Source: a virus. From it: a stretch of DNA of 64,000 nt. The translations under genes were made by a program, and so were the position numbers. Position 1 is the stretch's first letter. Every line of letters starts with the position of its first letter. The notes under the pieces are model-generated. The model had not been told where the DNA came from. It saw only the letters and a list, made by a program, of their open reading frames with translations, and did no database searches. Shown one piece after another: positions 6,295 to 60,139 of this stretch. The stretch spans positions 124,001-188,000 of the IMG/VR virus record IMGVR_UViG_3300032401_000001. The stretch is one strand, 5' to 3'.

Positions 6295-7068
6295 CTATCC
6301 GTAACCCTGATTGTACTCCCACTGTGAAGCCGGGGGGAGACTTGTTGGGTTGCCGTAGTACTGCTGCGGGTCGAGCGGTAGGCCCTGCATCATCGGGCCG
6401 TAGACTTGCGGCATGGCGTAGCTGGGCTTGTTCGCAGTTCCGCGCACGAGGTCGATCATGCCTGGTTGGCCGATCGCCTTCATGGCGAGATCGGAACCGA
6501 CCATACCGCCGGCGAACGGCACGGCCTTGGCTCCAAGAATCTTGGCGCGTTCACCGAGGGTGCCGCTGCGAGTGAAGATCGCGCGTCCTTTGGTGAGTTC
6601 TTCGAGTCGATTGGCGCCGCCCGGTAGCACGCGACCCAGACCACGGGTGGCTAGACGTTCACCGGCCCCCCAACCCATACCGCTCAAGGCACCCAGACCG
6701 AAGCCGCGACCGAAGCCTTTGAGGCGGTCTCCAGGTTCAGAGAGCGCGGCTTCGATGCCACCGCCCAAGAGACCCCAGCTGCCCATCTGCCCGGCAAGAC
6801 CCTTGCCGAGTTCTTGGGCCTTCGGTGCGAGGCCAGCGATCCACGGAGTCTTGGCGCGACCCAGCAGGCCAACCAGCTTGTTGCCAGCCCAGGCGAAGGG
6901 TGCACCGGTGACGCTGCCGATGATTCCTGCTGTCTTAGAAGTGGTGGGTTTGGCTGCGAGACCGAGTTCTGCGAGGGCACCGTGGATGCCCTCTTTGCGC
7001 GCAGTGTTGGCCAGCTGGGCCAATGCAACTGTACCCAGGAGCGCTGCGGCGATGTCGTGCCCCGCCAT
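6295..7068 (-). CDS. Gly/Ala-rich hydrophobic protein between sheath and tube
   Basis: A 257-residue protein rich in Gly, Ala and Leu with several moderately hydrophobic helices (for example GIIGSVTGAPFAWAGNKLVG and GFGRGFGLGALSGMGWGAG). It contains one lysine-Thr-Ala motif (SKTAG) like those concentrated in the head-region proteins. Its C-terminus is Pro/Tyr/Gln-rich. No family is recognised. It could be an internal virion protein or a tail chaperone. The ribosome site is weak (AAGG 11 bases upstream). Confidence 0.6.
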   Translation of the reverse strand: MAGHDIAAALLGTVALAQLANTARKEGIHGALAELGLAAKPTTSKTAGIIGSVTGAPFAWAGNKLVGLLGRAKTPWIAGLAPKAQELGKGLAGQMGSWGLLGGGIEAALSEPGDRLKGFGRGFGLGALSGMGWGAGERLATRGLGRVLPGGANRLEELTKGRAIFTRSGTLGERAKILGAKAVPFAGGMVGSDLAMKAIGQPGMIDLVRGTANKPSYAMPQVYGPMMQGLPLDPQQYYGNPTSLPPASQWEYNQGYG

Positions 7069-7087
7069 CGTGTGCTGCAGCCTTGGG

Positions 7088-9793
7088 CTAGGAGCTGATG
7101 AGGTGCAGGCCGATGCGGTTGAGGGGCTTCGGCATCTGCACTTCCATGTAGAGCTCGGCGCGATCCGCCGCGGCGGTGCTCTGGACCACGGAGGTGACGC
7201 TGGCTGAGAGCAGGGGGGCGCCGATCTTGGCGTACTTGCGCAGCTTCAGCAGGTCGATGCCGGTGTCCAGCGATTGGTTGAGCAGCCCGAGCGTCTCCTC
7301 GCTGATGTTGTACTGGCCGAGGAAGTCCTCGAGGATGTCCTGGAAGAACACTGAGATGAAGTCGAAGTTCTTGACGATGCTGTACTCACCGGTCTCGAGC
7401 GTGCTCGGGTCGGTGGTGAGCTGGTGGAGGCAGTAGGGCAGCGCCGAGGGCGTGTCTTGTACGAAGAGGAACCAGCCACCGTCCGACAGCGTGGTCAGCT
7501 GCGTGTCGCTGAAGTAGCGCGTCGAGTTGTAGATCTGGTCGACGCCCGCGATGCCGAGGTTGGTGAAGCCCTGATGCGACGGCAGGCCCGAGGTCAGGCC
7601 GCCGACGACGGCGGCCAGGTAGTAGCCCGGCTGGGCGTCGGCGGCTTCGGGGGTCGAGGGCACCGTACGGGACTTCGAACCGTCGACGAGCCCGTTGACC
7701 ATCACCGAGTCTGGCCACACCAGCACGGTACGCCGGCTCTTGAAGCTCTGCGCGATCGTGACCAGTTCGGTGACCTGGTCATCCTTGGTCAGCGCGCGGT
7801 TGACGCGGAAGCGCAGGGTGCTGTCGCCGACATCTGGCGCAGTGGCTTCGGCATCCTCATCGGCCGCCAGCACGATTGCGTTCTCGTTGGGGATGTAGGC
7901 GACGGGGTGGCTGAAGACCGTCGTGAACACCGTGGCGCTGATGGGGTTCGGGATCTCCAGTGCGTCACCAGCGATCACCATGTCGGTGAGGAAGGTCGCC
8001 GTGGGGCTCTGGATCATGCGGAAGACGCGCCGCGTGACGATGGCGGTGCCCGCCGGCACGGAGACGAGCGGCGCGTAGAGGCTGCCGATCAGAGCGGTCG
8101 TTGCGGTCCAGGCGCCGACCGGGGGGTTCTGCGTGGAGGCGATGGGCGTCCACTGGGCGGGCGTGACTACGGGCGACGTCGTGACCAGCCAGTCACCGTT
8201 GTCGGCGGCGCTGAGACCACCAGTGATGCGCAGGACCTTGCCGACGTGGGCGGCGAGTCCGACGATGCCGGCGTCGGCGGTGAAGAGGTTCGGTCCGGTG
8301 GTGGCGACACCGGCGATACAGGTGGTGCCGGAGACCGGCGTGCCGGTGCCGCGGATGATGTAGTACTTCGTCGTGCCGGACTGCTTGTTGGTGCTGGCGA
8401 ACGCGGTCGTGGTGCGCAGGCGCTTGTTGTCGTACACCTGAGCGACGGTGTAGGTGCCCTTCCGGGTGGCGACCGTGTCATCGACGATGACCAGCGTGTC
8501 GCCGGCGCGTACGCCGGCGGTGACGAAGGTGCCGGTGGCGTCGTAGAAGACGTTGATGGCGTCGGCAGCGACGATCGGCGTACCGGTGATGGCACCGTCC
8601 ACGGTGGCGTGGGCACCGTTGGCGAAGCTGGCGGCGTTGCTGGGACTGACGACCTTCGTGGTCGGCAGGGTCTGGGCGCCGAGAACGACGCGGAACTTCT
8701 GTGGGATGCCGGTGGTCTCGGAGTAGCTGACGCTGGCCAGCTGTTCGTACTGCGCCTTGTAGGTGGCGAGGATGCTCTTGTCCACGGTGAGGGGCACCGT
8801 GGCGTAGACGTCCTTGCGACCTTCGATGACTTCGAGGCACTCGCCGTGGCCGGTGGCGTCGTCCGACTTGACGCCGAAGAACTGGATGGGCGTAGTCGTG
8901 TTCTTGAGTGCGGCGATACAGCACCCGGCGAGCGGGTTGCGCGCGTCGTTCTTGCCGATCTTGGTGGTGACATCCGTCTCCGAGGAGACCGTGTCGAGTG
9001 CACGCAGATCCTGTCGCAGGGATCGGTACTCGACGTAGACCTCGGCGTAGCACACCGTGCGGACACTGGTCTCACTGGGGAGGACAATCACCGGGACGCC
9101 GGTTTCGGTGCTGATCAGGGCGGGCGTGGTGACGACGGTGGTCACGCCGCCCTGGACGATGATCTGGTTGTTGGTGATGACCACGAAGTTCGAGTCGACG
9201 GCGACGTCGTGGATTTCGCGTTCGACGCGGATCTTCAGCTTGCTGGCGCTACCCGCGGCGAAGTTGGTCGTCGTGTAGATGAAGTAGTTGGTGGCGTCGA
9301 CCGACAGCACCTGCTTGACGAGTCCCGTGCCCCCGGCGGGGTTCTCGATGATGACGTAGTCCCCGGCCCGCATGTTGGTCACTTGGGCCTTGAAGACGGT
9401 GCTGCAGCTACTGCAGTCGATCTTGTTGTGCGGGATGAAAGGTGAAGCCGTGGCTACCACGGCGCCGGTGGTGGGCGTGTTGTTGTCCTCGGCCATACGC
9501 ACGCGGCAGGCGTCGAAGTAGATCTGGACGCTGCTGGCATCGAGCAGCGCGCCGATCTTGTTGCCCGGTGGTTCCGCGATGGTGATGGCGTCGGTGGCCG
9601 CGGCCGGCGGCACGTACGGGTTGGCGGTGTCCTTCGTCCCGTAGTTGGAGGCGGCTTGGATGTCGCCCTTGTCGTCGAGGTAGTCCTTGACCCAGTACGC
9701 GGGGCCAGCGACCAGGCAGTTCAGATCGGGCGTGGCCGGCGTGACGGTGACGGACGCGTATTCTTGATAGACGAGAACAACTGGTCGTGCCAT
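7088..9793 (-). CDS. Contractile tail sheath protein
   Basis: A 901-residue protein, long for the family (usually 350-700 residues). The N-terminus (MARPVVLVYQEYASVTVTPA) resembles the start of sheath proteins. The C-terminal ~200 residues hold the typical sheath core: a segment starting RRTVLVWPDS, then repeated Gly-rich turns, FLFVQDT, and the helix around FISVFFQDILEDFLGQYN, ending in a basic strand. The central ~400 residues are Thr/Val-rich beta domains likely exposed on the surface of the sheath. Upstream is a TTGTGG/TATAAT promoter. Confidence 0.85.
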   Translation of the reverse strand: MARPVVLVYQEYASVTVTPATPDLNCLVAGPAYWVKDYLDDKGDIQAASNYGTKDTANPYVPPAAATDAITIAEPPGNKIGALLDASSVQIYFDACRVRMAEDNNTPTTGAVVATASPFIPHNKIDCSSCSTVFKAQVTNMRAGDYVIIENPAGGTGLVKQVLSVDATNYFIYTTTNFAAGSASKLKIRVEREIHDVAVDSNFVVITNNQIIVQGGVTTVVTTPALISTETGVPVIVLPSETSVRTVCYAEVYVEYRSLRQDLRALDTVSSETDVTTKIGKNDARNPLAGCCIAALKNTTTPIQFFGVKSDDATGHGECLEVIEGRKDVYATVPLTVDKSILATYKAQYEQLASVSYSETTGIPQKFRVVLGAQTLPTTKVVSPSNAASFANGAHATVDGAITGTPIVAADAINVFYDATGTFVTAGVRAGDTLVIVDDTVATRKGTYTVAQVYDNKRLRTTTAFASTNKQSGTTKYYIIRGTGTPVSGTTCIAGVATTGPNLFTADAGIVGLAAHVGKVLRITGGLSAADNGDWLVTTSPVVTPAQWTPIASTQNPPVGAWTATTALIGSLYAPLVSVPAGTAIVTRRVFRMIQSPTATFLTDMVIAGDALEIPNPISATVFTTVFSHPVAYIPNENAIVLAADEDAEATAPDVGDSTLRFRVNRALTKDDQVTELVTIAQSFKSRRTVLVWPDSVMVNGLVDGSKSRTVPSTPEAADAQPGYYLAAVVGGLTSGLPSHQGFTNLGIAGVDQIYNSTRYFSDTQLTTLSDGGWFLFVQDTPSALPYCLHQLTTDPSTLETGEYSIVKNFDFISVFFQDILEDFLGQYNISEETLGLLNQSLDTGIDLLKLRKYAKIGAPLLSASVTSVVQSTAAADRAELYMEVQMPKPLNRIGLHLISS

Positions 9794-13080: not shown

Positions 13081-13647
13081 CTAGGGGACGATCACCTGCT
13101 GCGTGTTGGGACCGAAGGCCCCCGGTTTGAAAAACTGGATCACGTAGGTGAAGCCCGCTTCGACTGTGATGGGTTGATTCCAGCGTCCGTCAGTACCGGT
13201 CGACGTGGTACCGACGGCGGCTGCGTAGTTGCCGAGGTCGAAGTCGATTTTCTTCCAGATGCGGATCTGAACTCCGACCAGTGGGTGATTGTCGGGGTCG
13301 ATCGGCTGCAGTTCGTTTACCCCGCCGTAGTCCTGGTTGAGGACGACGGTGTTGGGAAATGGCGGTGGCGTGGTCGACTCGGAAGGTTGAAACGGATCTG
13401 ACCAGCCGCTCGGATTGCCGTCGGTGTCGACGGCGCGTTCGCGATACCACAGCGTGGTGCTGCCGGTGGCATCGACGTAGAAGAAGCGGTTCGAGGTTGG
13501 GTCGTAGTCCGGTCCTGGAATGACGTGCGCAATGCTGACCAGGTCGGTCCAGGTGCCGGGTACACCAGCAACGTCCGGTGCCCGCTGCCAGTCGTAGCGG
13601 GAGATGTCCGACTCGGTGTTCGGCAGCCAGGTCAGTCGGATGCTCAC
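13081..13647 (-). CDS. Fibronectin-III-like virion surface protein
   Basis: A 188-residue protein. Residues 1-75 show a fibronectin-type-III pattern (IRLTWLPNTESDISRYDWQR, then WYRERAVDTDGNPS and WSDPF). Residues 95-185 resemble a carboxypeptidase-regulatory or Ig-like domain (VGVQIRIWKK, TDGRWNQP, TYVIQFFKPG). Such domains decorate phage heads and tails and help weak adhesion. Its start overlaps the stop of the upstream gene by four bases. Confidence 0.65.
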   Translation of the reverse strand: MSIRLTWLPNTESDISRYDWQRAPDVAGVPGTWTDLVSIAHVIPGPDYDPTSNRFFYVDATGSTTLWYRERAVDTDGNPSGWSDPFQPSESTTPPPFPNTVVLNQDYGGVNELQPIDPDNHPLVGVQIRIWKKIDFDLGNYAAAVGTTSTGTDGRWNQPITVEAGFTYVIQFFKPGAFGPNTQQVIVP

Positions 13648-13964
13648 GACGCATCACCTCGAGGATCACGCGGGGTTGCCGGCGGTTCGGTGCCGACGAC
13701 TTCGCTTCCTTCTGTACCATGCGGCACAGTCGGCGGTTCAATTGTAGTGTCGATCCCCGTCGGACCACAAGGTACGTGCGGAGGTCCGGCGCCGCTGGCT
13801 TCCATGCCAATGGGGACGTGCGGCGGCACCGGTTCGGCGATGCCTTCTGGGGCGCAGGGGCGGTGCGGCAGAGGTCCGTAGTGCCCTTCAGGGTCGTCTG
13901 GGGCGCGGATTTCTTGGAGGTTGATGTACCCCAGCATGCCATCGGTGATGAGGGAGATGGTCAT
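13644..13964 (-). CDS. Short proline-rich protein
   Basis: A 106-residue protein. The first ~20 residues are ordered; the rest is Pro/Gly/Glu-rich with repeated PPHVP-x-G and PxGTEG-like units, probably extended or polyproline helix. It overlaps both neighbours by four bases (ATGA type), so it is translationally coupled in a virion-gene operon. The frame is open with phage-like composition. A structural linker or decoration role is a guess. Confidence 0.6.
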   Translation of the reverse strand: MTISLITDGMLGYINLQEIRAPDDPEGHYGPLPHRPCAPEGIAEPVPPHVPIGMEASGAGPPHVPCGPTGIDTTIEPPTVPHGTEGSEVVGTEPPATPRDPRGDAS

Positions 13965-48744: not shown

Positions 48745-50559
48745 TCAGTAGCGTTCGGGAGGCCCGGTGCCGAACGACTCGCCCATGACGAGCGCGGGAA
48801 CGGGGTGCGTACCGTGCAGCTCAGCCGTTTCACCGAAGGCGGCACCCTCGAGAATGGAGTCTTTGAGGTTGCGATGGGCCAGCCGGGCTAGCCAGTCTGG
48901 CCGCAGCAACGGGGCGCGGCTGATGGGCTTCATGAGGGGTTCGTGCAACGGAATGCGCGGGGCGATGGGCACCGTTTTGATGCCGACGCGGCGCAGGTCC
49001 AAGGCTACCGCGGGGGTCACACGCGTGCCGGCGGTGTAGTGGAGCACGTTGTTGCCAAGGGTCTCGCCCAGGGCGTCGGTCACCGACATCACCTTGGTGT
49101 GCTCAGCGACCAGGTTGCGGAACCGGTTGTAGTCGATGACGTCGCCGCGCAGGAGCCCGAGTTGTTCCGCGTCTCGGTCCATGATCTTGACGTAGTTCAG
49201 ATCGGTCTTCGCCAGCAGCTCGAGGTGGCGGCGGTCCAGGTCGAGACCGTGTCGTTTGTAGATGCCTTGCAGCTGATCGACGAGGTACTGGCGGCCTACC
49301 CCTAGTCCTTTATGACGTACGACATCGTCGGGACGGGGGATGCCATCGGAGAGCGCGTCGCCGGCTTCGATCTTGTCACCTCGACGCACGGTCACATCTA
49401 GGATCGGCGGTACGTAGTGCTGTTCTTGATCGACCGTGACGTAGTGACCACCCTGTGGTGCTGCGGCGACTGCCGTCACGGTGCCAGGCTGTTCTGAGAG
49501 CACGGCGCGGTTGAAGAAGCTCTGCGGAATCTCAGTGAGCTGCTTGAGGCCCGACAGGCCACTCAGCACAACTTTCCGTGAGGCGGTGGTACGGGCGGCG
49601 TGTTTCGCGTTGAGTGCCATCTGGGTGAGGGGTTCACCCATGGCGTGCGCCGCGATCATGCCGACGTTGTCGCCGATGCGTGCGTTCTGGCCGCGGTTGT
49701 TCAAGCCGTAGCAGCGCTGGCAGACACCGTGCGGGGCTTCACAGGTCATCGGTGAACGCAGCACTACCGTCTTACTATGGAGTCGACTCGCCAGTTGACC
49801 CGTGAGCAACGTGCCGGCGGGGATACCTTCACTGGACTTGGCGAGATAACGGTCTCGGGCTTGCGGGTCATCGGCGAGCATCGCCAGGCCGTTGGTGGTG
49901 CCGCAGTCCGGCACCGTGATGAGCTGGTCACCCATGTTGCCGATGAGCAGCTTGCTGATTTCGCCCGGTGCGGAAACGGAGGTATTCGATTCAACGGCGT
50001 TGCGGCGAGCTTCACCCAAGGCGATCCAGGCGTCGATGGGTTTGAGCCCCTCGGCGTAGCTCTTGCTGATGATCCACGGTACGGTGCGCCCGCGGTCATC
50101 GGTAACTGCCACCGGTGACGTCACGGTGCGCATGACCTGGGGCATGCTGCCGCGAGCACCACTGCGGACCATCATCGCGGCCTGGCCGGGGTGATGCTTG
50201 GTGATTTCGATGATCTTGGGTTGCAGGTCTTCGATGAGCTTGATGCGGGCCTGGAGATCGTGGGTGCGCTTCACCTGCGCCAGCACAGGTTCGAGCAGCG
50301 GGTCACGCACGGCGTATTCGGGTTCGATGTCGTCTAACCCGACGGTGACGCCTTCGTCGGTAGCGACGGCATCCCCGATACGCTTGATGTCGGAGATGGC
50401 CTGCACATAGCGTGGGGCGTCGTTACGCGCCAGATCTGACATCAACGCATTGAGCTCGTGCCGCGCCAGTGGTTGAGTGACGTGATGCGACGCGGGCAGG
50501 GCTTCGTTCAACAGCAGTCGACCGATGGTGGTCGTCGCTGGTTTGCGCTTGGTCGGCAT
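48745..50559 (-). CDS. RNA polymerase beta-prime, C-terminal part
   Basis: A 604-residue homologue of the C-terminal half of bacterial beta-prime. It begins at the TIGRLLLNEALP region (bacterial TVGRxxL) where the fused gene at 55694 ends. It keeps SGARGS (133-138), the DCGT Cys (219) with C273, C280 and C283 of the second zinc site, and the trigger-loop segment GEPLTQMALNAKH with His 320. No large insert is seen. It would have to associate in trans with the beta/beta-prime-N fusion to give an active centre. The ribosome site is weak, and the gene is separated from the fusion by eight genes (5.1 kb). Confidence 0.9.
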   Translation of the reverse strand: MPTKRKPATTTIGRLLLNEALPASHHVTQPLARHELNALMSDLARNDAPRYVQAISDIKRIGDAVATDEGVTVGLDDIEPEYAVRDPLLEPVLAQVKRTHDLQARIKLIEDLQPKIIEITKHHPGQAAMMVRSGARGSMPQVMRTVTSPVAVTDDRGRTVPWIISKSYAEGLKPIDAWIALGEARRNAVESNTSVSAPGEISKLLIGNMGDQLITVPDCGTTNGLAMLADDPQARDRYLAKSSEGIPAGTLLTGQLASRLHSKTVVLRSPMTCEAPHGVCQRCYGLNNRGQNARIGDNVGMIAAHAMGEPLTQMALNAKHAARTTASRKVVLSGLSGLKQLTEIPQSFFNRAVLSEQPGTVTAVAAAPQGGHYVTVDQEQHYVPPILDVTVRRGDKIEAGDALSDGIPRPDDVVRHKGLGVGRQYLVDQLQGIYKRHGLDLDRRHLELLAKTDLNYVKIMDRDAEQLGLLRGDVIDYNRFRNLVAEHTKVMSVTDALGETLGNNVLHYTAGTRVTPAVALDLRRVGIKTVPIAPRIPLHEPLMKPISRAPLLRPDWLARLAHRNLKDSILEGAAFGETAELHGTHPVPALVMGESFGTGPPERY

Positions 50560-50568
50560 CGGAGAAGA

Positions 50569-50940
50569 TCAACCGCGAGGATTGGCAGGTACCATCAGGC
50601 CACCCGAGGAACGCCCCTCTTCGACGTGCGTCGATCCACCCCAGGTCGTGAGTCGGTCGAGGTTGTTGGTGTAGGCGTAGTTGGCGTTGTCGGGGTTACT
50701 CCTCCCCTTGATCCCTTCGTCATCCATGTCGCGCAGCAGGCGCGCAAAGCGTTCGGCGCCGATGTTCATGCTCTTCTCGGGAAAGGGCGTGCCGTGCTGA
50801 TCACCACCTTCGTTTGGCGGCATCGGGGCGGCGGTCTTGCGCGCCTGGCGCCGTGCCAGCGCGTAGGCGATGTCGTCGCTCATGAGCCCCAAAGCTTTCA
50901 GGGCTTCACCGGCACCGCGACTGAAGAACTCGTCACCCAT
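50569..50940 (-). CDS. Small virion-like protein with shared N-terminal motif
   Basis: A 123-residue protein with the N-terminal helix FFSRGAGEALKALGLMSDDI and an RKTAAPM motif at ~35, then a disordered acidic tail. GGAGC precedes the ATG. It lies between the holin-like gene and the beta-prime C-terminal gene. The motif pair connects it to the proteins at 52298, 47266 and 11429. A role in virion assembly is inferred. Confidence 0.6.
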   Translation of the reverse strand: MGDEFFSRGAGEALKALGLMSDDIAYALARRQARKTAAPMPPNEGGDQHGTPFPEKSMNIGAERFARLLRDMDDEGIKGRSNPDNANYAYTNNLDRLTTWGGSTHVEEGRSSGGLMVPANPRG

Positions 50941-51634: not shown

Positions 51635-52084
51635 TCAGCGAAGGTTTACCGCGTAAAGCGCGGTGACGATACCCCTAGTATAAGGTATGGACGCCTGCTT
51701 CACGATGTTGAGATCGGGGTCGGTCTGGTACATCACGGGCTGGTCATGTGGCTGTGGCTGGTCGTCGTACGGCAGCTTCGCGTAGCGCTGCGCGGAGATT
51801 GGCGGCAGCGCATCGCCGCGGAGCTTGGTGCGGATGAAGTCGTCAGCCGCGGCGCTGGCCTTTTCTTGCTTCGCTTCTGCTTCCATCGCCTTGAGGCGGC
51901 GATAGTAGTCGGGAATCTCGGTCAGGTGATCGATGGCGATGTCCGTCTGCTTCGCTGGATCGTCCGTGTGCTCATGTTCGATCTTCTGACCGGCGGCAAC
52001 TTCGGCGGCAGAGAAGTCGGACGGCTTCTTGCCCTCTTTTTCGGCGTTGCCGCCGGGGATGCCGCCGGGGAGTGCGTAGGCCAT
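51635..52084 (-). CDS. DUF5661-like phage protein
   Basis: A 149-residue protein starting at ATG 52084 (GAGG upstream). Residues ~30-65 match the DUF5661 pattern (HTDDPAKQTDIAIDHLTEIP, then YYRRLKAMEAE), a small helical domain frequent in phage genomes. The rest is Pro/Asp-rich; a VKQA motif lies near the end. The last codons contain a palindrome copy and the holin-like promoter is inside the gene. The function is unknown. Confidence 0.7.
   Translation of the reverse strand: MAYALPGGIPGGNAEKEGKKPSDFSAAEVAAGQKIEHEHTDDPAKQTDIAIDHLTEIPDYYRRLKAMEAEAKQEKASAAADDFIRTKLRGDALPPISAQRYAKLPYDDQPQPHDQPVMYQTDPDLNIVKQASIPYTRGIVTALYAVNLR
51645..51657. repeat. Palindrome TTTAC-CGC-GTAAA (copy 7 of 8)
   Basis: A 5+3+5 inverted repeat within the last codons of the 51635 gene, 22 bases upstream of the holin-like start. 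Confidence 0.75.
51677..51705 (-). promoter_or_regulatory. Leftward promoter of the holin-like gene
   Basis: Minus strand: TCGTGA (51705-51700), 17-base spacer, TATACT (51682-51677), inside the 51635 gene and about 54 bases before the holin-like start. Confidence 0.6.
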
Positions 52085-52086
52085 GA

Positions 52087-52296
52087 TCAACCTCGAGGCA
52101 CAAGCCCAGTGTCGAGTAGCGCTTGCGCCACGCCGTGCCCGAAGAACCGGCTCTCCTTCTTGCGACCGACGCGCTCGGGGAGCTTCTTGCCCTTGGGCGT
52201 GGTGTCCTCCCAGTGCTTGACGGTGGTCTTCGAGATCTCACCACGGTCAGCCATGGCGTAGAACTTGCCGCGTTGCGCTTGGCTCTTGAAGGGCAT
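52087..52296 (-). CDS. Small phage protein (MPFKSQAQR family)
   Basis: A 69-residue protein. The start MPFKSQAQRGKFYA and the middle HWEDTTPKGKKLPERV are characteristic of a small protein family widespread in phages, usually annotated as hypothetical. It is basic and may bind nucleic acid. An AAGGAG-like site is upstream. It sits between the ligase-fusion gene and the DUF5661 gene. The role is unknown. Confidence 0.75.
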   Translation of the reverse strand: MPFKSQAQRGKFYAMADRGEISKTTVKHWEDTTPKGKKLPERVGRKKESRFFGHGVAQALLDTGLVPRG

Positions 52297-52297
52297 G

Positions 52298-54193
52298 TCA
52301 CTGCTCCTTACGCGTCGGCTGCTTTCGTTCCATCACGCTGACTTTGCCGACACGTGGATCATTGAGAAGGGCGGCGTCATGAAAGCCGAGGCTTTCGTAG
52401 AATCGTTTCGCACCGCGGTTCTTCGAGATACGTTGAAGGGACGTCGCGGGTGTTGGGAGACTCTTCAGCAGCTGTGTGGCAACACCTTGACGCCGGTGTG
52501 GTGGCGACACATAAAGGCCAGTTAAGCGCCCGGTTCCAGGTTCGGCTGCGACGAGTCCACGAAACTTCCCTTCTGGCGTGACATCAAGTTTGACCTGATG
52601 TGGTGTTCCGAACTCTGACGTACGTAGATCGATGTCGCGGATGTGGAATCGCGCAAGATCTTCTGCGGTGGCGTCGCGGATGTGTTGCGACGTTTTCTCT
52701 TCTGACGGCAGCAGGCCCAGATTCTTGTCGAGGTGCCAGTCCTTGAAGGCCGGCGCACGCAGTGCTCCGGGCTTCTTCGGATGCTCCTTGTCGTGGTAGA
52801 GCCCAAGGGCCTGCACCTTGGCGACGCGGCCGATGTACTTCGCCGGGTTCGACAGCATGTCGCGCTTGAGCGCATGGTCGAGTCCGGTGCCGACGTTGCC
52901 GACGATCTTGCCCTCGGGGGTCCAGGAGTAGCGGAAGCCGCCGGCCAACTCGGTACGCGCCCCCGTCTCTGGGTAGACCTCACGCACGTAAACGTCGTGG
53001 TCTGGTCGGAACTTGGCCTTGGTGGGCGGGCCACCGGCGAGGGGCCAGAGCACGACGCCTTCGCTGGTGATGGGTTCCTGCCCGGTGCGAATCCGGTTCA
53101 GCAGGTCGATCTTCTCTTTCGGCGTCCGCGCCATCGGCGGGAGTTCGAGGAACGGTAGCGACTTGTGGACCTCCCCAAGGATGGACAGTTTCTTCTCGTA
53201 GGGGAGTGACTCCAGGTCTTTCCCGTGGCGCCGCGCGACATCGAAGATGATCGCTCGCAGCGGCGTGTGAGTTTGCAGATCGCGGCTCTTCCATACGCCG
53301 GAGTTGAGGACGGCGCCCGTATCTTGAGTTCCGCGAGCTCTTCCGGTGTGAGGGTCGGCGGCGACGAGTTCCCCCCGGAGCACCAGTTGGTCGAGATGAT
53401 CAGGCACGCGGGTCGTGTATCCCGGCAGGAATCGGTGGCTGTGCTCGATGACCCCGGTGTCGCGTTCGGTAGGACGGTAACTGAAAACCCGTACGGGATG
53501 ACCCGCATCAAGAACGAATGTGTTGTGTGCGCCGTCGACCTTTGCGGCCATGAGTTGCTGATCATTGGTGACGTCGACCTTGTCGGGGGTCGTCTCCTTG
53601 TAGTCGGGCTTGCTCTGGGGAATGTCGGGGCGCTTCTCTTTGGTGATGGTCACGTTCTGCAGCAGCCACTTGTCACCGTGGGTGCGGTGCAGGACGTACT
53701 CGTTGATGTCCTTCCCCTGATAAACGTTGAAGCGTACCTTGTCGCGGTTCGCTTCGACTACGTCGACCGGTTCCTTGAGTGCCATACGGACCTTGCCGGC
53801 GCCGTATCCTGAACCGATCGTCTGCTCACCCTTCTCGCCGAAGTGGAGTGCGTAGTCGGGGGTGTGCGTGAACGTTTGGACGGCGAGCAGGCGCTCGCCG
53901 GGTTCTGGTAGACGAGCTTTCGGGATCGCCCACGAGTGAGCTTTCCCCGCGTCAGGATCAACCAGACGCAGGTCGAAGTGCGCGCGGCCGCCTGAGCGCG
54001 CAGTTTCGTGGTGCTGTACGGCGAGCGTCCAGCGGTTGAGCGTATCGGCGTTGATCGTCGGGAGTGGGGAGACCGGCTTACCCTTGGGGATGCCCGGGGC
54101 GAACTCACCGGGCAGGGCTGCCTGGGCGGTCTTCAGTAGACCGAGGTCCGCCAGCGCGGCGAGGCGACCTCCGATGGTGTAGACCGCGGCCAC
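52298..54193 (-). CDS. LigD-type phosphoesterase / ATP-dependent DNA ligase / GNAT fusion
   Basis: A 631-residue protein. Residues 1-25 hold a helical motif plus LLKTA. Residues 53-145 match the LigD 3'-phosphoesterase domain, with likely metal and catalytic residues H62, H72-x-D74-x-R76, H110 and Y114. Residues 214-400 match an ATP-dependent ligase nucleotidyltransferase: motif I KVDG (K218), RGELVA (E275), FDVARRHG (317-324), SEGVVLW (377-383) and TKAKFRP (391-397). An OB-like region follows. Residues 540-605 look like a GNAT acetyltransferase (GLYVSPPHRRQGVATQLL and NRGAKRFYESLGF). GTG 54193 follows GAGG. It could repair ends and nicks in injected DNA. The fusion is unusual. Confidence 0.8.
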   Translation of the reverse strand: MAAVYTIGGRLAALADLGLLKTAQAALPGEFAPGIPKGKPVSPLPTINADTLNRWTLAVQHHETARSGGRAHFDLRLVDPDAGKAHSWAIPKARLPEPGERLLAVQTFTHTPDYALHFGEKGEQTIGSGYGAGKVRMALKEPVDVVEANRDKVRFNVYQGKDINEYVLHRTHGDKWLLQNVTITKEKRPDIPQSKPDYKETTPDKVDVTNDQQLMAAKVDGAHNTFVLDAGHPVRVFSYRPTERDTGVIEHSHRFLPGYTTRVPDHLDQLVLRGELVAADPHTGRARGTQDTGAVLNSGVWKSRDLQTHTPLRAIIFDVARRHGKDLESLPYEKKLSILGEVHKSLPFLELPPMARTPKEKIDLLNRIRTGQEPITSEGVVLWPLAGGPPTKAKFRPDHDVYVREVYPETGARTELAGGFRYSWTPEGKIVGNVGTGLDHALKRDMLSNPAKYIGRVAKVQALGLYHDKEHPKKPGALRAPAFKDWHLDKNLGLLPSEEKTSQHIRDATAEDLARFHIRDIDLRTSEFGTPHQVKLDVTPEGKFRGLVAAEPGTGRLTGLYVSPPHRRQGVATQLLKSLPTPATSLQRISKNRGAKRFYESLGFHDAALLNDPRVGKVSVMERKQPTRKEQ

Positions 54194-54205: not shown

Positions 54206-54730
54206 CTATCCCTTGCGACCCTTCGCGGTAGTGTGGCCGATGCGCTTGGCGGTGGTCATTTTCTTCTTGTGGGACATCTTGCGCTTCAGCGCCTGGAAGC
54301 GGCCACCGACACCTACTGGAGTACGTGACGCGGATTCACGTGCGCTGCTGGGCCGTCCGTTTCGACCACGAGGGCCACCCAGCTTTTCGAGGGTGCGCCG
54401 TACGATGCCATCGGTGTCGACTTCGAAACCGGCGAACTTCGGTGGTGGCGCCGTGGGGTTGTCGTACTCGGCGTCCTGCATGTCGCGGGCAAAGTCCGCC
54501 GCGGCGCGGGTACGTGCGCCGAGCTTCGTGCTCGAGACGGGGGCCATCGGTGAACCCATCGGGGGCGCAGGGGCGGCCGTGTTCGTCGGGGGCTGGGCGG
54601 CTATGGCCGAAGGCGTCGGTCCGCCCGTCGTGATCGCGGGCGTGGCGCTCGTCTTGACCTGTACGCCGAAGTGCTGCAGTGCCGCCTCAGCACCGATGCG
54701 AAAGGCCAAGTCGAGATGCCGGTTGCTCAT
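54206..54730 (-). CDS. Virion-like protein with HLDxAFxxGA motif
   Basis: A 174-residue protein. Residues 5-25 (HLDLAFRIGAEAALQHFGVQ) match the N-termini of the two downstream-encoded paralogues at 54817 and 55075. It has VKTSA, a Pro/Ala linker and a basic C-terminus (KRKMSHKKKMTTAKRIGHTT) with nucleic-acid-binding character. GAGGAG precedes the ATG. Probably an internal virion protein. Confidence 0.65.
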   Translation of the reverse strand: MSNRHLDLAFRIGAEAALQHFGVQVKTSATPAITTGGPTPSAIAAQPPTNTAAPAPPMGSPMAPVSSTKLGARTRAAADFARDMQDAEYDNPTAPPPKFAGFEVDTDGIVRRTLEKLGGPRGRNGRPSSARESASRTPVGVGGRFQALKRKMSHKKKMTTAKRIGHTTAKGRKG

Positions 54731-54816: not shown

Positions 54817-55047
54817 CTACGGCGGTCCGCCCGGGGAACGCCCGGGGAGGCGGGTACCCGGGAGATCGGTGGGTAGCTTCGGCGGCGTTGGCCGCGGCAC
54901 GATTCCGGGTCCTGGGCGACCGGGCTTAACGTCGGGCGTGGGGATGGGCGGTCGATCTTCCCCCACGGCCACCTTGTTGAGCTCCGTCTCGAAGTCGTAC
55001 TGCGCCTGTGCGGCGCCGATCTTGAATGCGGTATCCAGGTGCGACAT
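54817..55047 (-). CDS. Short protein with HLDxAFxxGA motif
   Basis: A 76-residue protein. Residues 3-25 (HLDTAFKIGAAQAQYDFETE) are nearly identical to those of the 55075 gene; the rest is Pro/Gly/Arg-rich. AAGGAGAG precedes the ATG. The region after the stop (54731-54816) reads in another frame as PPEPGTNMPDNLAFLRDPGA, so a frameshift could have shortened the protein. Confidence 0.6.
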   Translation of the reverse strand: MSHLDTAFKIGAAQAQYDFETELNKVAVGEDRPPIPTPDVKPGRPGPGIVPRPTPPKLPTDLPGTRLPGRSPGGPP

Positions 55048-55074: not shown

Positions 55075-55644
55075 CTACGCCCAACTGGGTCTCTTGAGTC
55101 CGGCGGGTGCCGCGGTGCCAGCGGCGGGACGTAGCCCGGCGGGCGCGGCCGGCTTGGCCCCACTGAAGAACTGCGACATGCCCGAGAAGTTCGGGGTGCC
55201 ACCAGCAGCGGGAGCTGCGGCGGGAGCCCGCGCAACGGCCGTACCACCACCGCCACCACCAGCGCCGGGGTAGTTGATGGGACCAGCGGCGACGGCGGGA
55301 CTGGCCTGCGGTGCACCACGTCCGGTGGGCGTGTTCGCGACTTGGCCACGCTGACCCATGCCCATGCTGGCGAGAGCGTTGGACGGTTGCGTGGTGCCGG
55401 GACGCTGGACGCCGGCGACGGCCGTTGAGGTTGGGGGAGTTCCGGCGCTTCTGCCACCGAGGCCACCGCCCATGGGCGAAGGACCACTCCGCGTCAGTGC
55501 GGGTTGGCCGATGGTCTGCCCCGGGTCTTGCCCGCGCGATGACGGCACCAGGTCGCCGAACTGGCCGGACTTGTGCAGCTCGGCCTGGAAGTCGTGTTGC
55601 GCCTGGGCAGCGCCCAGCTTGAACGCGGTATCGAGATGGCTCAC
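55075..55644 (-). CDS. Ala/Gly/Pro-rich protein with HLDxAFxxGA motif
   Basis: A 189-residue protein from GTG 55644 (GGGAGG upstream). The N-terminus HLDTAFKLGAAQAQHDFQAE defines the paralogue group; the remainder is low-complexity Gly/Ala/Pro sequence, probably unfolded. It is the first gene after the fused polymerase and has its own promoter overlapping the polymerase stop. An internal or decoration role is possible. Confidence 0.6.
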   Translation of the reverse strand: MSHLDTAFKLGAAQAQHDFQAELHKSGQFGDLVPSSRGQDPGQTIGQPALTRSGPSPMGGGLGGRSAGTPPTSTAVAGVQRPGTTQPSNALASMGMGQRGQVANTPTGRGAPQASPAVAAGPINYPGAGGGGGGTAVARAPAAAPAAGGTPNFSGMSQFFSGAKPAAPAGLRPAAGTAAPAGLKRPSWA

Positions 55645-55667
55645 GGAGACCTCCCTGTGCAACCGCA

Positions 55668-55697
55668 AGTATAGGTCATCGATGGACGATTGCTCAA
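55668..55697 (-). promoter_or_regulatory. Leftward promoter of the 55644 gene
   Basis: Minus strand: TTGAGC (55697-55692), 18-base spacer, TATACT (55673-55668). The -35 box overlaps the stop codon of the polymerase gene. Confidence 0.65.
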
Positions 55698-58600
55698 CCG
55701 ATCTCTATCTCGGCGTTGAGCGCGATCTCACCACGACGATACGCGGCGAGCGCTTCGGCCTTGGTCTTGAAGCGGTACTTCTTGCCGTCCTTGGCGTTGC
55801 TGGCCAGATGCACGCCGACGATGGCTTCGTGCTGCGGGAAGACCAGCAGGTCGCTCTTGGTCTTGTCGCCGAAGAGCAGGTTGGACAGCAGCATCGCTTT
55901 CACGTCTTTGACGGCGCCGGGCATGACCGGGACGTGGACGGTCAGCGTGTCGCCGTCGTAGTCGAGGTTGAGGCCCTTCTCGATGAACGGGTTGACGCGT
56001 AGCGTCTTGCCGGGCACGGGTACCGGGTAGGCGCCGATCATGCCGTAGCGGTGCAGCGTGGGGGCACGATTGACGATGAGGGGACGCTCCTGGGCTTCAC
56101 GCAGCAGCGCTTCACGGGCCACCGGCATGTGGTCTTCGAGCGCCTTCTGTGCATCGACCGCGTGGTAGCCGTTCTGCACCAAGCGCCGGATGACGTGTGG
56201 ACCGTACATCGTCCACATCATGTCTTCGGGAATGCCGACCTCGTCCATGTTGAGGTTGAGGTCGGGGACCGCGGTACCGCGACCACTGACGTCCTGCGGG
56301 CGGTAAAGGACCTTGCCGTGGAAGAAGCCGCCTTTGGGGCTGCCTTGGCCGGCGATCGTCGTGATGAATCCCTTGGCGCCGCGACCCTGCAGCTGTGGGC
56401 TCATCGGGTCACCGAGACCGAAGACCGCCTTGGTGGCGTCGTAGAGATGCAGCCGCGCCTTGGCCACTTCTTCGGGTGGCAGCGAGTGCTTGGCTGCGGC
56501 CAGGTTCTCGTTGGCGAGCATCGCGTCGCGGTACAGGTAATTCGCGTCGGAGACTAGCAGGTCCTTGCGTCCGTGTGACGCCGGTAGGATCGGGCGCACC
56601 ACCGGGGGCACGACGCCCAGCTTCGAGATGATGTAGGCCTGGTCCGGTGAGAGCTTCTCCCGTTGCAGCGCCAGGACGTTCTTCAGCTGTTTCAGGGCAC
56701 CATCGAGGCGGGCGCCAGTGGCATCACGCACTTCACCACGCAGTTCGCGCTCGCGCTGATCGAGGTTGATGGTTGCCAGACGGCGGCGGACACCGGCGCC
56801 GCCTTCACGCTCCAGCAAGTCGCGGAACTGTGCGACGGTGAGTCCCAGCAGGCGGCGTACCGGTTCTTCGAACGTCGGGTTCACCAACGGTTCATGCAGG
56901 TCGACGTGTGACCAGCGGGTGCCGTTGGTGCCGCCGGTGACCACCGGATCGAAGAGTCCGCCCTTCTCCGGGGAGAGGTCTTTCTCCTTCACCATGAGCG
57001 GTCGGGCGATGGCGCCGGCGGAGAGCTTCTTCACGTCGGCATCGGTCAACGGACCGAGCGTCATCTGTTCGTTGCCCTTGTCGACCTTGATGCCGGCGCC
57101 GCGCAGCATCTCCAGGAACTTTTCACTGGTGAACGAAGTGCGGGCCGGCGGCAACGGCAGGCCCAGCTGGTAGGCGCGCCAGAACTCGTCGTTGCGTGAC
57201 GACTTGAGGGTCATGGATTCGCGCAGCACGTTGCGGGCGTTGTGCGCCAGCAGGGCGTTGATCTCCATGCGTCCGAGGGCTTTCGCGCCGGTCGCACCGC
57301 CTTTGGCGGGCTGCAGGTTGGCGTCATAATCTTCGACGCCGCGCGCGCTGTAGTTCGTCTCGGTGCTCTTGAAGAGCTTGTAGATGTACTGCGGTCCGAC
57401 CATCACACCCTTGCCATCGGGTCCTTTGATGGTCTTCCCGGTCATCGGGTTGTCGAGGATTTCCTTGTCGGTGAGGCCGTGTTCTTTGAGGAGTCCACGT
57501 GCCCACTTCACGTTGTTCTTGCCGCTGAACGACTCGATGACGATGGGCTTGCCAGTCTTCTCGGCGACTTTGGCGACTGCAGTTTCCAGGATCTGTGCGG
57601 GATTGATGCGGCCATGCACTCCGGTGGGCGGCATGAGCAAGTCCAACGGACGCCCATCCAGGGTGTGCGGCATCTGGGCGATTGGCAGTACCTGAGAGAC
57701 GACGCCTTTGCCGCCGTAGCGGTTCGAGATCTTGTCGCCAATCGCCGCGGGTTCACTGGTGCGGACCGTGAGCAGGATGCGCGACGGGGTCGCGACGACG
57801 TCGACGATTTCACCGGGACAGCGGTGTTCCCACGTCAACGCGATTTCACGGAAGGGCGTGTTCAACGTGCGGTGGAGCTTGCCGAGCATGCGCTGTTCGG
57901 CGGTGGGCAGCGCCTTGTGCAACCCGAGGATGAGTGGGTCGCCGGGCTGCAGCGTCTCCCCGGAACGAGCGACGCCGCGGCTGTCGAGGTGAGCGTACTG
58001 GACGGCGGTCCAGCGGCTGCCGAACATGGCGCGGTGCTTGTCGCGCTCGAGCACCGTGTCCAGGTCGAGCTGGAGCACTTCCTTGTACATATGCTCGCTG
58101 GTCAACTTCTCGGCGGCTGCTTGTGAGATGACCACGGCGTCGTTGGTGTTGGCGCCGTAGTGGGGCAAATAGCCCACGCGGAGATTCGTGCCCAACGCTA
58201 GCCGGCCGTCCATGGTGACGTTCGAGTCGGTGAGGAGTTGTTCGGCGTCAACTTCGTCGCCGGCCTTCACCGTGACGTTGTTGTGCAGGAAGGTCTTGGA
58301 CGACAGCGGGAAGTGGTCGTCGTAAGGGATCTTGATGATCGGCGCGGCGGCGGTCTTCTCACCGTCTTCGGCGAGATAGACATGCTCGACGGGCGCCATC
58401 TGCGGCCACTCGCTCGCCGCTTCGGCCTTCTTCTTGCTCTCGGGTCGCAGGTAGATGTAGTCCTGATCGACCTTGGTGATGGTGCCGGCCACCGGGGCGT
58501 GCGGCACAATGAAGCGCGCGATCTCCTGCTCCATCGTACGGCGGGGATTGAACGACGCGACCTGCACCAACGGAGCTTCACGGTGCACCAGCGGAAGGGC

Positions 58601-60139
58601 CTGGCCGACGTGCTTGGCGCCCATCAGTAGACGGAAACCTTCGACGCTCTCCGGCATCGGGATGGTGTTGCTCGACAGCGAGAACATAAAGGATGGATGG
58701 GGCAGATCGTAGTCGATCTCGCCGCGGCCGACCGAAACCGGCTGCCCGGCGCGCAGGGCCGAGACTCCGCGTTGCTGGTCACGTTGCCACGGCAACGCTA
58801 CCGTGGCGTTCTCGACGTCCTGAACGGCGATGTCTTGGAGTTTGCCGGTTTTGGCGTTGCGCAACAACGTGTGCATCCGGCCCTGCTCGTCACGCTTGAG
58901 CCAGAGCGCGGCGCGCAGGTCGACGCCGGCATGGAAGCTCTCGGGGGTACGCGCCGGGTCGATGAAACCGAAGTGCGTGTGGTGGAGGCTGCGCGCCTCG
59001 TTGGGGATAGCACGTTCGGATTCGATGCCGCCTTCGCCTAGCGTCGTGACCTTGGCTGCACTGTCGAGAATCTCGACGGGATTGATCTGCGTCGGGATCG
59101 AAGACAACGTGCTGTTGGTGATGAAGCTGCGGAGGGTTCGCGTAAACGGTGAGGGCGGGACGATGCGATCGAGGTCGAGGTTGCCCGAAGACGCCTTCAT
59201 ACGCGCCTTCTTGGCCAGGTTGCGCCCCTCCAGCATGATGCGTTCCCGCACGAAGTCGTCGGCGCTCAGCAGTTGTTGGAAGGCGAGGCTGTCGCGGTCG
59301 TCGGTGTCGACGCCTTCACGGTGAACGTCGAGCAGCTTCTTCGAAGCTTTAACTAGGGCCGCCGGGGTCACGTGGGTGAAAGGTGTCCCCAGGGTTCGTG
59401 ACGTGACATCGGGGTCCAGCACGGTGTTGTTGTAGCTCTCGTGGATGGCGTCGGCCTTGGCTTCCTGGGTATGGTGGGTGCGGCGGTACTCCGGCACCAG
59501 GCGCTCGTAGAGCTTATCCATCGCTTTGTCGGCCTTCGCCGGCGTACCAGAGAACATGCTGCGATTCTGGGCGACGACCCCGCTGCCCCAGGCGCGGTTG
59601 AGCTCGGTTTCGGGGACGCCGAGCTTGCGCAGGATGGGGTAGAGCGGGATGTTGGTCGTCCCGTATTGCATGTAGAGGTGACCCTTGGCGGGGTCCATGC
59701 TGAGACGGAAGTTGTCACCGCGGCCCAGGTTGAAGGCGGCTTCGAGTTCTTCGTTGCCCCGCACGCGGGTGTACACGCCGGGGCGGACCCGGCGTTGGTT
59801 CGCTACCGAGTACTCGTTGCCATCCACGATGAACGTGTGTCGGGGCGTGAACCACGGCAGCTGGGCCAACGTGATGTCGTCCTTGCGCTGGACGGTCTTT
59901 CCCGCAGCGTCTTTGAGGACCAGGGATCCCTTGAGGGGTTCCTGCAGCGTGTGTCCCTGCAGCAGCGCGTCTTTCTGTTCGCGGGAGGAGTATTCCTTCG
60001 AGACTACGTGTAGGTCTTCGACTTCGATGCGGTGATCCCGGAGAGCGAGCGGAAAGACGCGACGGACACCGTCGGTCGCTTTTTCGTGGATCTGGGTGCG
60101 ACGTGTGGCGGCATCGATGAGAATTGGGGTCAGAGCCAT
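55694..60139 (-). CDS. RNA polymerase beta / beta-prime N-terminal fusion
   Basis: A 1481-residue protein. Residues ~1-1000 align with bacterial beta: the fork region (SLSSNTIPMPESVEGFRLLM), the segment LRVGYLPHYGANTNDAVVIS, and GDKISNRYGGKGV (801-813), equivalent to the active-site-lining GDK motif. After a short junction, residues ~1040-1481 are beta-prime N-terminal: RPQDVSGRGTAVPDLNLNM, VNRAPTLHRYGM and the catalytic NLDYDGD (1391-1397; D1393, D1395, D1397) that binds Mg. The N-terminal zinc site of beta-prime is absent. The protein ends at ALNAEIEIG, where the 48745-50559 gene takes over. An EKTA motif at ~594-597 lies in a surface insert. No strong ribosome site; a TATACT box ends 9 bases before the ATG. 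Confidence 0.92.
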   Translation of the reverse strand: MALTPILIDAATRRTQIHEKATDGVRRVFPLALRDHRIEVEDLHVVSKEYSSREQKDALLQGHTLQEPLKGSLVLKDAAGKTVQRKDDITLAQLPWFTPRHTFIVDGNEYSVANQRRVRPGVYTRVRGNEELEAAFNLGRGDNFRLSMDPAKGHLYMQYGTTNIPLYPILRKLGVPETELNRAWGSGVVAQNRSMFSGTPAKADKAMDKLYERLVPEYRRTHHTQEAKADAIHESYNNTVLDPDVTSRTLGTPFTHVTPAALVKASKKLLDVHREGVDTDDRDSLAFQQLLSADDFVRERIMLEGRNLAKKARMKASSGNLDLDRIVPPSPFTRTLRSFITNSTLSSIPTQINPVEILDSAAKVTTLGEGGIESERAIPNEARSLHHTHFGFIDPARTPESFHAGVDLRAALWLKRDEQGRMHTLLRNAKTGKLQDIAVQDVENATVALPWQRDQQRGVSALRAGQPVSVGRGEIDYDLPHPSFMFSLSSNTIPMPESVEGFRLLMGAKHVGQALPLVHREAPLVQVASFNPRRTMEQEIARFIVPHAPVAGTITKVDQDYIYLRPESKKKAEAASEWPQMAPVEHVYLAEDGEKTAAAPIIKIPYDDHFPLSSKTFLHNNVTVKAGDEVDAEQLLTDSNVTMDGRLALGTNLRVGYLPHYGANTNDAVVISQAAAEKLTSEHMYKEVLQLDLDTVLERDKHRAMFGSRWTAVQYAHLDSRGVARSGETLQPGDPLILGLHKALPTAEQRMLGKLHRTLNTPFREIALTWEHRCPGEIVDVVATPSRILLTVRTSEPAAIGDKISNRYGGKGVVSQVLPIAQMPHTLDGRPLDLLMPPTGVHGRINPAQILETAVAKVAEKTGKPIVIESFSGKNNVKWARGLLKEHGLTDKEILDNPMTGKTIKGPDGKGVMVGPQYIYKLFKSTETNYSARGVEDYDANLQPAKGGATGAKALGRMEINALLAHNARNVLRESMTLKSSRNDEFWRAYQLGLPLPPARTSFTSEKFLEMLRGAGIKVDKGNEQMTLGPLTDADVKKLSAGAIARPLMVKEKDLSPEKGGLFDPVVTGGTNGTRWSHVDLHEPLVNPTFEEPVRRLLGLTVAQFRDLLEREGGAGVRRRLATINLDQRERELRGEVRDATGARLDGALKQLKNVLALQREKLSPDQAYIISKLGVVPPVVRPILPASHGRKDLLVSDANYLYRDAMLANENLAAAKHSLPPEEVAKARLHLYDATKAVFGLGDPMSPQLQGRGAKGFITTIAGQGSPKGGFFHGKVLYRPQDVSGRGTAVPDLNLNMDEVGIPEDMMWTMYGPHVIRRLVQNGYHAVDAQKALEDHMPVAREALLREAQERPLIVNRAPTLHRYGMIGAYPVPVPGKTLRVNPFIEKGLNLDYDGDTLTVHVPVMPGAVKDVKAMLLSNLLFGDKTKSDLLVFPQHEAIVGVHLASNAKDGKKYRFKTKAEALAAYRRGEIALNAEIEIG

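Follow-up and report, generated by a model that had tools for sequence, protein, structure and literature searches.

A LigD-like phosphoesterase-ligase with an acetyltransferase C-terminus, encoded between the RNA polymerase genes of a large phage

LigD modules in bacteria and phages

The bacterial NHEJ protein LigD combines polymerase (POL), 3'-phosphoesterase (PE) and ligase (LIG) modules in varying order, and the POL domain is not universal among LigD proteins. The occurrence of NHEJ components in actinobacteriophages has been surveyed by Sharda (2020). No matches are reported there among ~3,000 actinobacteriophages (PMC7719229), and mycobacteriophages Omega and Corndog are described as encoding a Ku that uses the host LigD to circularise the phage genome (Pitcher 2006, via PMC7719229). 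A second point of reference is provided by the polyvalent proteins, in which several unrelated enzymatic domains share one polypeptide encoded near virion genes, with GNAT, NTase and peptidase domains among the partners (Iyer 2017, PMC5512222); the term LigD does not occur in the main text of that paper. A search of titles and abstracts found no report of phage-encoded LigD-type proteins in virions, and a phage-related mention of LigD is a table row concerning Sinorhizobium prophages (PMC12429752).

The protein considered here is encoded on the minus strand at 52298..54193 of the window, the 64,000-nucleotide stretch that was analysed, which corresponds to bases 124001-188000 of a 197,792-base virus record (G000) that may be incomplete. 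Its open reading frame starts with GTG and specifies 631 amino acids. Profile searches, alignment, a structural model and structure matches divide these into an N-terminal motif, a LigD-type PE, an ATP-dependent ligase (nucleotidyltransferase plus OB) and a GNAT. A preliminary description had given the domain order as PE, ligase and GNAT, which Pfam, TIGR02777 and PDB matches show to be correct. It had also named domain searches and structure prediction as ways of checking this. In the AF2 model pLDDT is mostly above 80 across the PE and ligase, so that both are confidently modelled; residues 1-30 are unusable, as is everything from residue 491 onward (the GNAT stretch, mostly below 60), where Pfam supplies the support. 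The GNAT passes its Pfam cut-off, and neither the fold nor the motifs of the ligase are degenerate. A tblastn search with the protein against phage and plasmid collections gave no match at 1e-5.

The protein shares with LigD its PE and LIG modules and their catalytic residues, and relatives of it at the same genomic position have a LigD-type POL joined to the PE. It differs in lacking a POL, which is also absent from the record, and in being phage-encoded among RNA polymerase and head genes with an additional N-terminal motif and GNAT. No match to Ku (PF02735) was found in any of 39 virus records, fragments included, although a host may carry Ku. The cut-offs for full-length LigD and the PRK09632 family are not reached (59.2 versus 989 bits and 12.5 versus 373.2 bits, respectively). 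We therefore consider that the protein probably works like LigD, but do not class it as LigD, given these full-length scores and the lack of POL and Ku. With Omega and Corndog it shares the presence of an NHEJ toolkit in a phage, possibly acting on incoming ends; the phage studied here is their mirror image, having LigD-type parts without Ku. In common with polyvalent proteins it has at least two disparate enzymatic domains and lies among virion genes, as seen from its RNA polymerase flanks, the head genes and synteny with Salmonella phage Arash; Pfam matched none of the polyvalent hallmark domains in it. Arash and Vibrio phage D69 have the same RNA polymerase beta-beta' / beta' layout and the same neighbours, but no PE or ligase lies between their polymerase genes and their ligases are elsewhere.

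We propose that this is a Ku-less LigD-like enzyme for end healing and nick sealing, made from a late RNA polymerase operon and probably packaged and injected with the polymerase. Our confidence in this reading is middling. It is the explanation best suited to the domains, the intact catalytic residues, the purifying selection and the conserved place between polymerase genes that are set out below.

The phosphoesterase and ligase domains

Residues 54-181 (53651..54034, minus strand) form a LigD-type 3'-phosphoesterase according to profiles, alignment and structure match, with H62, H72, D74, R76, H110 and Y114 in the active site. The Pfam LigD_N profile matches at 5.7e-7 (30.1 bits), slightly below the 31.1 cut-off that the PE domains of several relatives exceed, and TIGR02777, which represents the LigD PE domain, matches at 6.1e-9, under its equivalog cut-off. 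The sequence also matches the archaeal LigD-type PE in PDB entry 3p4h (3.2e-7), and the modelled domain superimposes on that structure with Z 16.2, rmsd 1.5 and 35% identity over 113 aligned residues; the protein thus has the PE fold. In the Pseudomonas aeruginosa PE the metal residues are reported to be His42, His48 and Asp50 (PMC8656161). Through chain 3n9b, these align with His62, His72 and Asp74 of the window protein. Together with their partners, these make up the metal and phosphate residues of the LigD 3'-phosphoesterase superfamily, and alignment places the set in the window protein. His62, His72, Asp74, Arg76 and Tyr114 are invariant in all 42 aligned PE rows, a set that includes several near-identical proteins, and His110 is present in 41, the remaining row having X there. 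The patterns used to search for PE loci, AHSWA[IV]PK and [DN]KWLL[QM]N, exclude all six active-site residues. The His/Asp/Arg/Tyr set expected of such a domain, which the preliminary description had listed, is accordingly both present and conserved.

The ATP-dependent DNA ligase core occupies residues 187-492 (52718..53635, minus strand), as identified by Pfam, alignment and structure match, with K218 in motif I and E275, E378, K392/K394 and R479 as further key positions. Pfam DNA_ligase_A_M matches at 3.6e-7 (30.5 bits, above the 26.2 cut-off), and the model aligns with the phage T4 ligase (6dt1_A) over 280 residues with Z 19.0 and rmsd 3.9. Among 11 PE-ligase proteins, ranging down to 32% identity with the window protein, K218, D220, G221, E275, E378 and K394 are invariant and K392 and R479 nearly so. 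Motifs I, III, IV, V and VI and the nucleotidyltransferase-OB fold of ATP-dependent DNA ligases are all found, which bears out the earlier claim of a ligase nucleotidyltransferase with all core motifs. Motif IV carries Trp at a position where many ligases have Lys. Together with the small, structural-like proteins encoded nearby, that substitution might be read as the mark of a degenerate enzyme kept in the virion for structure or DNA binding. Every catalytic residue tested is kept, however, and we find this reading scarcely credible; the more general notion of a degenerate ligase was rejected on the retained catalytic residues and the match to the T4 fold.

A comparison with the nearest sibling phage (L001, ~90% DNA identity) points in the same direction. 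Residues 1-490 of the two proteins are 97.3% identical, with dN 0.014 and dS 0.278 (dN/dS ~0.05), and 87 of the 101 nucleotide differences fall at third codon positions. The PE-ligase part, judged by these substitutions, is under purifying selection.

Exchangeable ends: acetyltransferase and N-terminal motif

The linker and GNAT make up residues 500-631 (52301..52696, minus strand; Pfam stretches within 541-606). Pfam Acetyltransf_7 matches at 8.1e-9 (36.2 bits, cut-off 27) and Acetyltransf_1 at 9.2e-8 (32.8 bits, cut-off 20.7); PF13508, PF00583 and PF13673 all exceed their curated cut-offs, and an acetyl-CoA loop, RRQGVA, can be recognised by eye. The GNAT-like C-terminus suspected at the outset is therefore real. 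In the sibling the gene encodes 501 residues ending in ...DLPKEK and has no GNAT. The next gene downstream (52087..52296, minus strand) lies immediately behind the PE-ligase stop codon in both phages, so the GNAT represents a clean C-terminal gain or loss. GC3 is 0.557 in the GNAT stretch versus 0.788 in the rest of the gene, which disfavours an ancestral GNAT. The domain is thus probably a recent add-on at an exchangeable C-terminus; less probably it was lost in the sibling, as the resemblance of its EEKTS linker to that of another relative (L018) would allow.

Among the scanned viral contigs, a GNAT on a PE-ligase was seen in the window protein only, which comes from one metagenomic contig. 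Other PE-ligase proteins end differently: L001, L019 and L020 have no C-terminal addition, that of L018 (7989-10808, 939 aa) is fused with a DUF4269 and a peptidase C39-like domain, and those of L061, L069 and L078 have long unrelated tails. The tail of the 1080-aa L069 protein (6389-9631) is partly glycosyltransferase 28-like (weak, 0.004, under cut-off). An ART-like domain noticed by eye in L023, L078, L040 and L070 received no Pfam support over cut-off and was dropped. The only relatives of the GNAT itself were found in two distant phages (L160 and L161, 40% identity); in L160 the GNAT is joined to a small Gly-rich protein, and its gene overlaps the end of an RNA polymerase gene. This type of GNAT is thus twice linked to an RNA polymerase gene.

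These C-termini bear on the idea that the protein is a counter-defence effector of the polyvalent kind, in which the PE-ligase would mend DNA that host nucleases have broken, and the GNAT would inactivate a host protein. GNAT, ART, NTase and peptidase domains are all found in polyvalent proteins (PMC5512222), the L018 relative has DUF4269 and C39 domains, and a protein with an InPase domain (PF18823) is encoded in this record. Against this, the nearest sibling does without the GNAT, and we think such a role very unlikely; it would differ from our preferred reading mainly in purpose.

At the other end of the protein, residues 1-24 (YTIGGRLAALADLGLLKTA; 54122..54193, minus strand) form a helical motif, found by regex and modelled at low confidence, that we propose to be a packaging tag. 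The same motif begins small proteins encoded on the minus strand at 50569..50940 (MGDEFFSRGAGEALKALGL) and 54206..54730 (LAFRIGAEAALQHFGV), identified by reading of ORFs and by regex, and ORF reading alone gave a looser form at 54817..55047 (MSHLDTAFKIGAAQAQYDF) and in a second, copy-like protein at 55075..55668 (SHLDTAFKLGAAQAQHDF), also on the minus strand. The last two have nearly identical N-termini (SHLDTAFK.GAAQAQ.DF) and the look of a tandem duplication. A motif regex applied to the six frames of the record, written post hoc after six examples had been seen, gave 11 matches against a mean of 2.9 in shuffles (maximum 6, 20 shuffles). Eight of the 11 are found close to where minus-strand ORFs could start, in two clusters at 115-121 kb and 174-179 kb. 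A regex derived from three window proteins had 3 matches outside the window, two of them already seen before it was made; all fell 6-9 residues after a possible start, the shuffle mean was 0.225 and none of 200 shuffles reached 3. An InPase-domain protein (PF18823, 9.2e-37; G000 116934-118262, equivalent to L080 3935-5263, minus strand) adjoins several motif-bearing proteins; the InPase domain has been described in polyvalent proteins.

A profile of 18 tag-like segments from the PE proteins of other phages failed to distinguish this genome's tagged late proteins: an unrelated ORF scored best (8.4 bits, E 0.3), and scores of up to 6.2 bits were reached by shuffled ORFs. We therefore claim the tag within this genome only. 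There, the motif shared with neighbouring proteins stands, as reported in the preliminary description, whereas the shared LKTA sequence reported with it does not: LKTA occurs once in 31 late proteins, in the window protein itself, and 302 of 1000 shuffles had as many. The shorter KT[AS] is enriched in the same 31 proteins (17 versus 6.7 expected; none of 1000 shuffles had as many), and the motif could serve as a tag for packaging that a protease cuts near KT[AS].

The slot between the RNA polymerase genes

The gene lies in a slot flanked upstream by a fusion of RNA polymerase beta with the N-terminal part of beta' (55694..60139, minus strand) and downstream by the C-terminal part of beta' (48745..50559, minus strand), both identified by profile match and locus comparison. 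The same slot holds a DUF5661 protein (5.8e-10; 51635-52090). Elsewhere in the window, ARAGORN called a plus-strand tRNA-Arg at 13614-13705, where ORFs run on the minus strand; the call is probably spurious. The same two polymerase genes flank a variable slot in Arash, for which mass spectrometry of purified particles has been reported. Both Arash polymerase proteins are among the five with most spectra (Gp206, which ranks first with 3516, and Gp216 with 1210), and the slot proteins Gp210 and Gp213 were also present with fewer spectra. Helicase Gp217 and DNA ligase Gp177 were detected as well, and the Arash authors caution that enzymes of this kind are plentiful during infection and may have been carried over. 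No PE was found in the Arash slot. In the block around the gene, matches to a head maturation protease-like protein (6.8e-6) and a head decoration protein (7e-15) support the view that this is a structural region. The synteny supports the earlier placing of the gene in a virion block, since it sits between polymerase genes whose Arash counterparts, Gp206 and Gp216, occur in particles.

When viral contigs were scanned with alignments of PE or PE-ligase and the PE proteins met in a scan for the polymerase were added, 70 protein rows were obtained, counting the window protein, and these form 39 clusters at 95% identity: 25 in which a LigD-type primase-polymerase is joined to the PE (PrimPol-PE), 11 PE-ligases and 3 PE proteins with other partners. 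A scan of genome contigs with the PE alignment gave 16 pattern matches and no relatives. PF21686 (LigD_Prim-Pol) was over cut-off in five of ten proteins chosen as examples of different architectures, and three aspartates are kept throughout the aligned PrimPol set (n=18). The best PDB matches of the PrimPol-PE model are POL structures of Mycobacterium tuberculosis LigD, with 3pky first (2.7e-12). A 1031-aa protein of this type (L070 5193-8288) has the LigD-type PrimPol at its N-terminus, a weak P-loop match and the PE at its C-terminus. PE-ligase and PrimPol-PE were never found together in one record, many of the records being fragments. The PrimPol (PF21686) was matched in none of the 13 records without PrimPol-PE, G000 included, and PF01068 ligase was matched in 10 of 39 records, 9 of them over cut-off.

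A scan with the polymerase beta-beta' alignment, from which the best 80 of 340 relatives were kept, yielded 60 loci with both polymerase genes. The slot holds a PE protein in 25 of these (17 PrimPol-PE, 5 PE-ligase, 3 PE), a ferritin-like protein in 8, both in none and neither in 27; since the 60 loci are mutually related, we attach no probability to these counts. In one of the 27 (L148), a PE-ligase lies upstream of the polymerase gene, outside the slot. Four further PE-ligase loci (L061, L069, L078 and L079) have no polymerase gene visible nearby. The ferritin-like (Dps-like) call rests on PF00210 matches in two proteins (2.5e-11 and 6.9e-14) and then on a profile made from those two; the proteins are those of L118, L124, L125, L126, L127, L130, L131 and L151. 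In three loci the beta-beta' ORF has an in-frame insert of ~1 kb (L022 3457-4467, L050 4123-5043, L060 4050-5105), directly after a conserved IGDK/VGDK site, which starts with Cys, contains a ...DTxVLT... stretch and looks like an intein; a homing endonuclease is annotated in the same polymerase gene region of Vibrio phages D181 and D148. LigD-type modules, primase-polymerase included, thus recur in the polymerase slot, their usual place, across a phage lineage, a pattern more general than the GNAT fusion.

These comparisons bear on two further explanations. The gene might encode the sole DNA ligase of the phage, serving replication and repair inside the cell, transcribed with the late operon and not packaged, with the PE as a proofreading extra. 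PF01068 indeed matches nothing in the 197,792-base record apart from the window protein, an NAD-dependent ligase was matched in none of 15 records, G000 included, and Vibrio phage D69, with the same polymerase layout, has a ligase in a replication-like gene block. Many relatives, however, have PrimPol-PE in the slot and no PF01068 match in their records, so what is conserved in the slot is a function other than ligation as such, and a position between polymerase genes and among head genes would be unusual for a replication ligase. We regard this alternative as somewhat unlikely. The other would make the protein a partner of the polymerase, packaged or not, that acts on RNA or DNA 3' ends during transcription, in template nick repair or RNA 3' processing. 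PE-type genes in the slot often abut or overlap the polymerase genes at this conserved position, and the PE of LigD is reported to resect 3'-ribonucleotides (PMC8656161). The ligase fold is closest to DNA ligases, though, and the 27 of 60 loci (from the best 80 of 340) with neither a PE nor a ferritin-like protein indicate that the polymerase does not need the PE protein, which makes such a partnership distinctly unlikely.

Under our preferred reading, that of a packaged end-healing and nick-sealing enzyme, the protein would be a product of the late operon that encodes the multisubunit RNA polymerase of the phage itself, would be packaged with that polymerase by means of its N-terminal helix and would enter the cell with the DNA. 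There the PE may convert blocked 3' ends of the incoming DNA (3'-phosphate, ribonucleotide) to 3'-OH, and the ligase may seal nicks and perhaps join ends in the newly infected cell; since Ku was matched in none of 39 records, genuine end joining would depend on some other factor for synapsis. In relatives, the LigD-type primase-polymerase paired with a PE would fill gaps and leave ligation to other enzymes. The GNAT may acetylate a protein, possibly the polymerase or a host defence protein, as has been proposed for the GNATs of injected polyvalent proteins.

The presence of LigD-type parts at the same place in related phages suggests, without proving it, that the genome enters the cell together with a DNA repair kit from the particle. 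More tentatively, large phages of one lineage may package, along with their virion RNA polymerase, a split, Ku-independent LigD toolkit (PrimPol-PE or PE-ligase), which would repair the injected DNA and heal its ends at a stage when the functions of the host cannot yet be drawn on. As a ferritin-like protein alternates with the LigD parts, one may think of a DNA-caretaker slot, in which repair by LigD parts and ferritin/Dps-like protection would alternate and C-terminal effectors such as the GNAT would be exchangeable. We know of no earlier case of a phage particle carrying its own LigD-type break-repair enzymes; if the protein is packaged, this would be the first known to us, the need of virion DNA for repair on entry would become testable and the uses of the NHEJ toolkit would extend beyond bacteria. 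The slot and the sibling pair with and without the GNAT also lend themselves naturally to the study of how effectors become attached to a core enzyme in phages.
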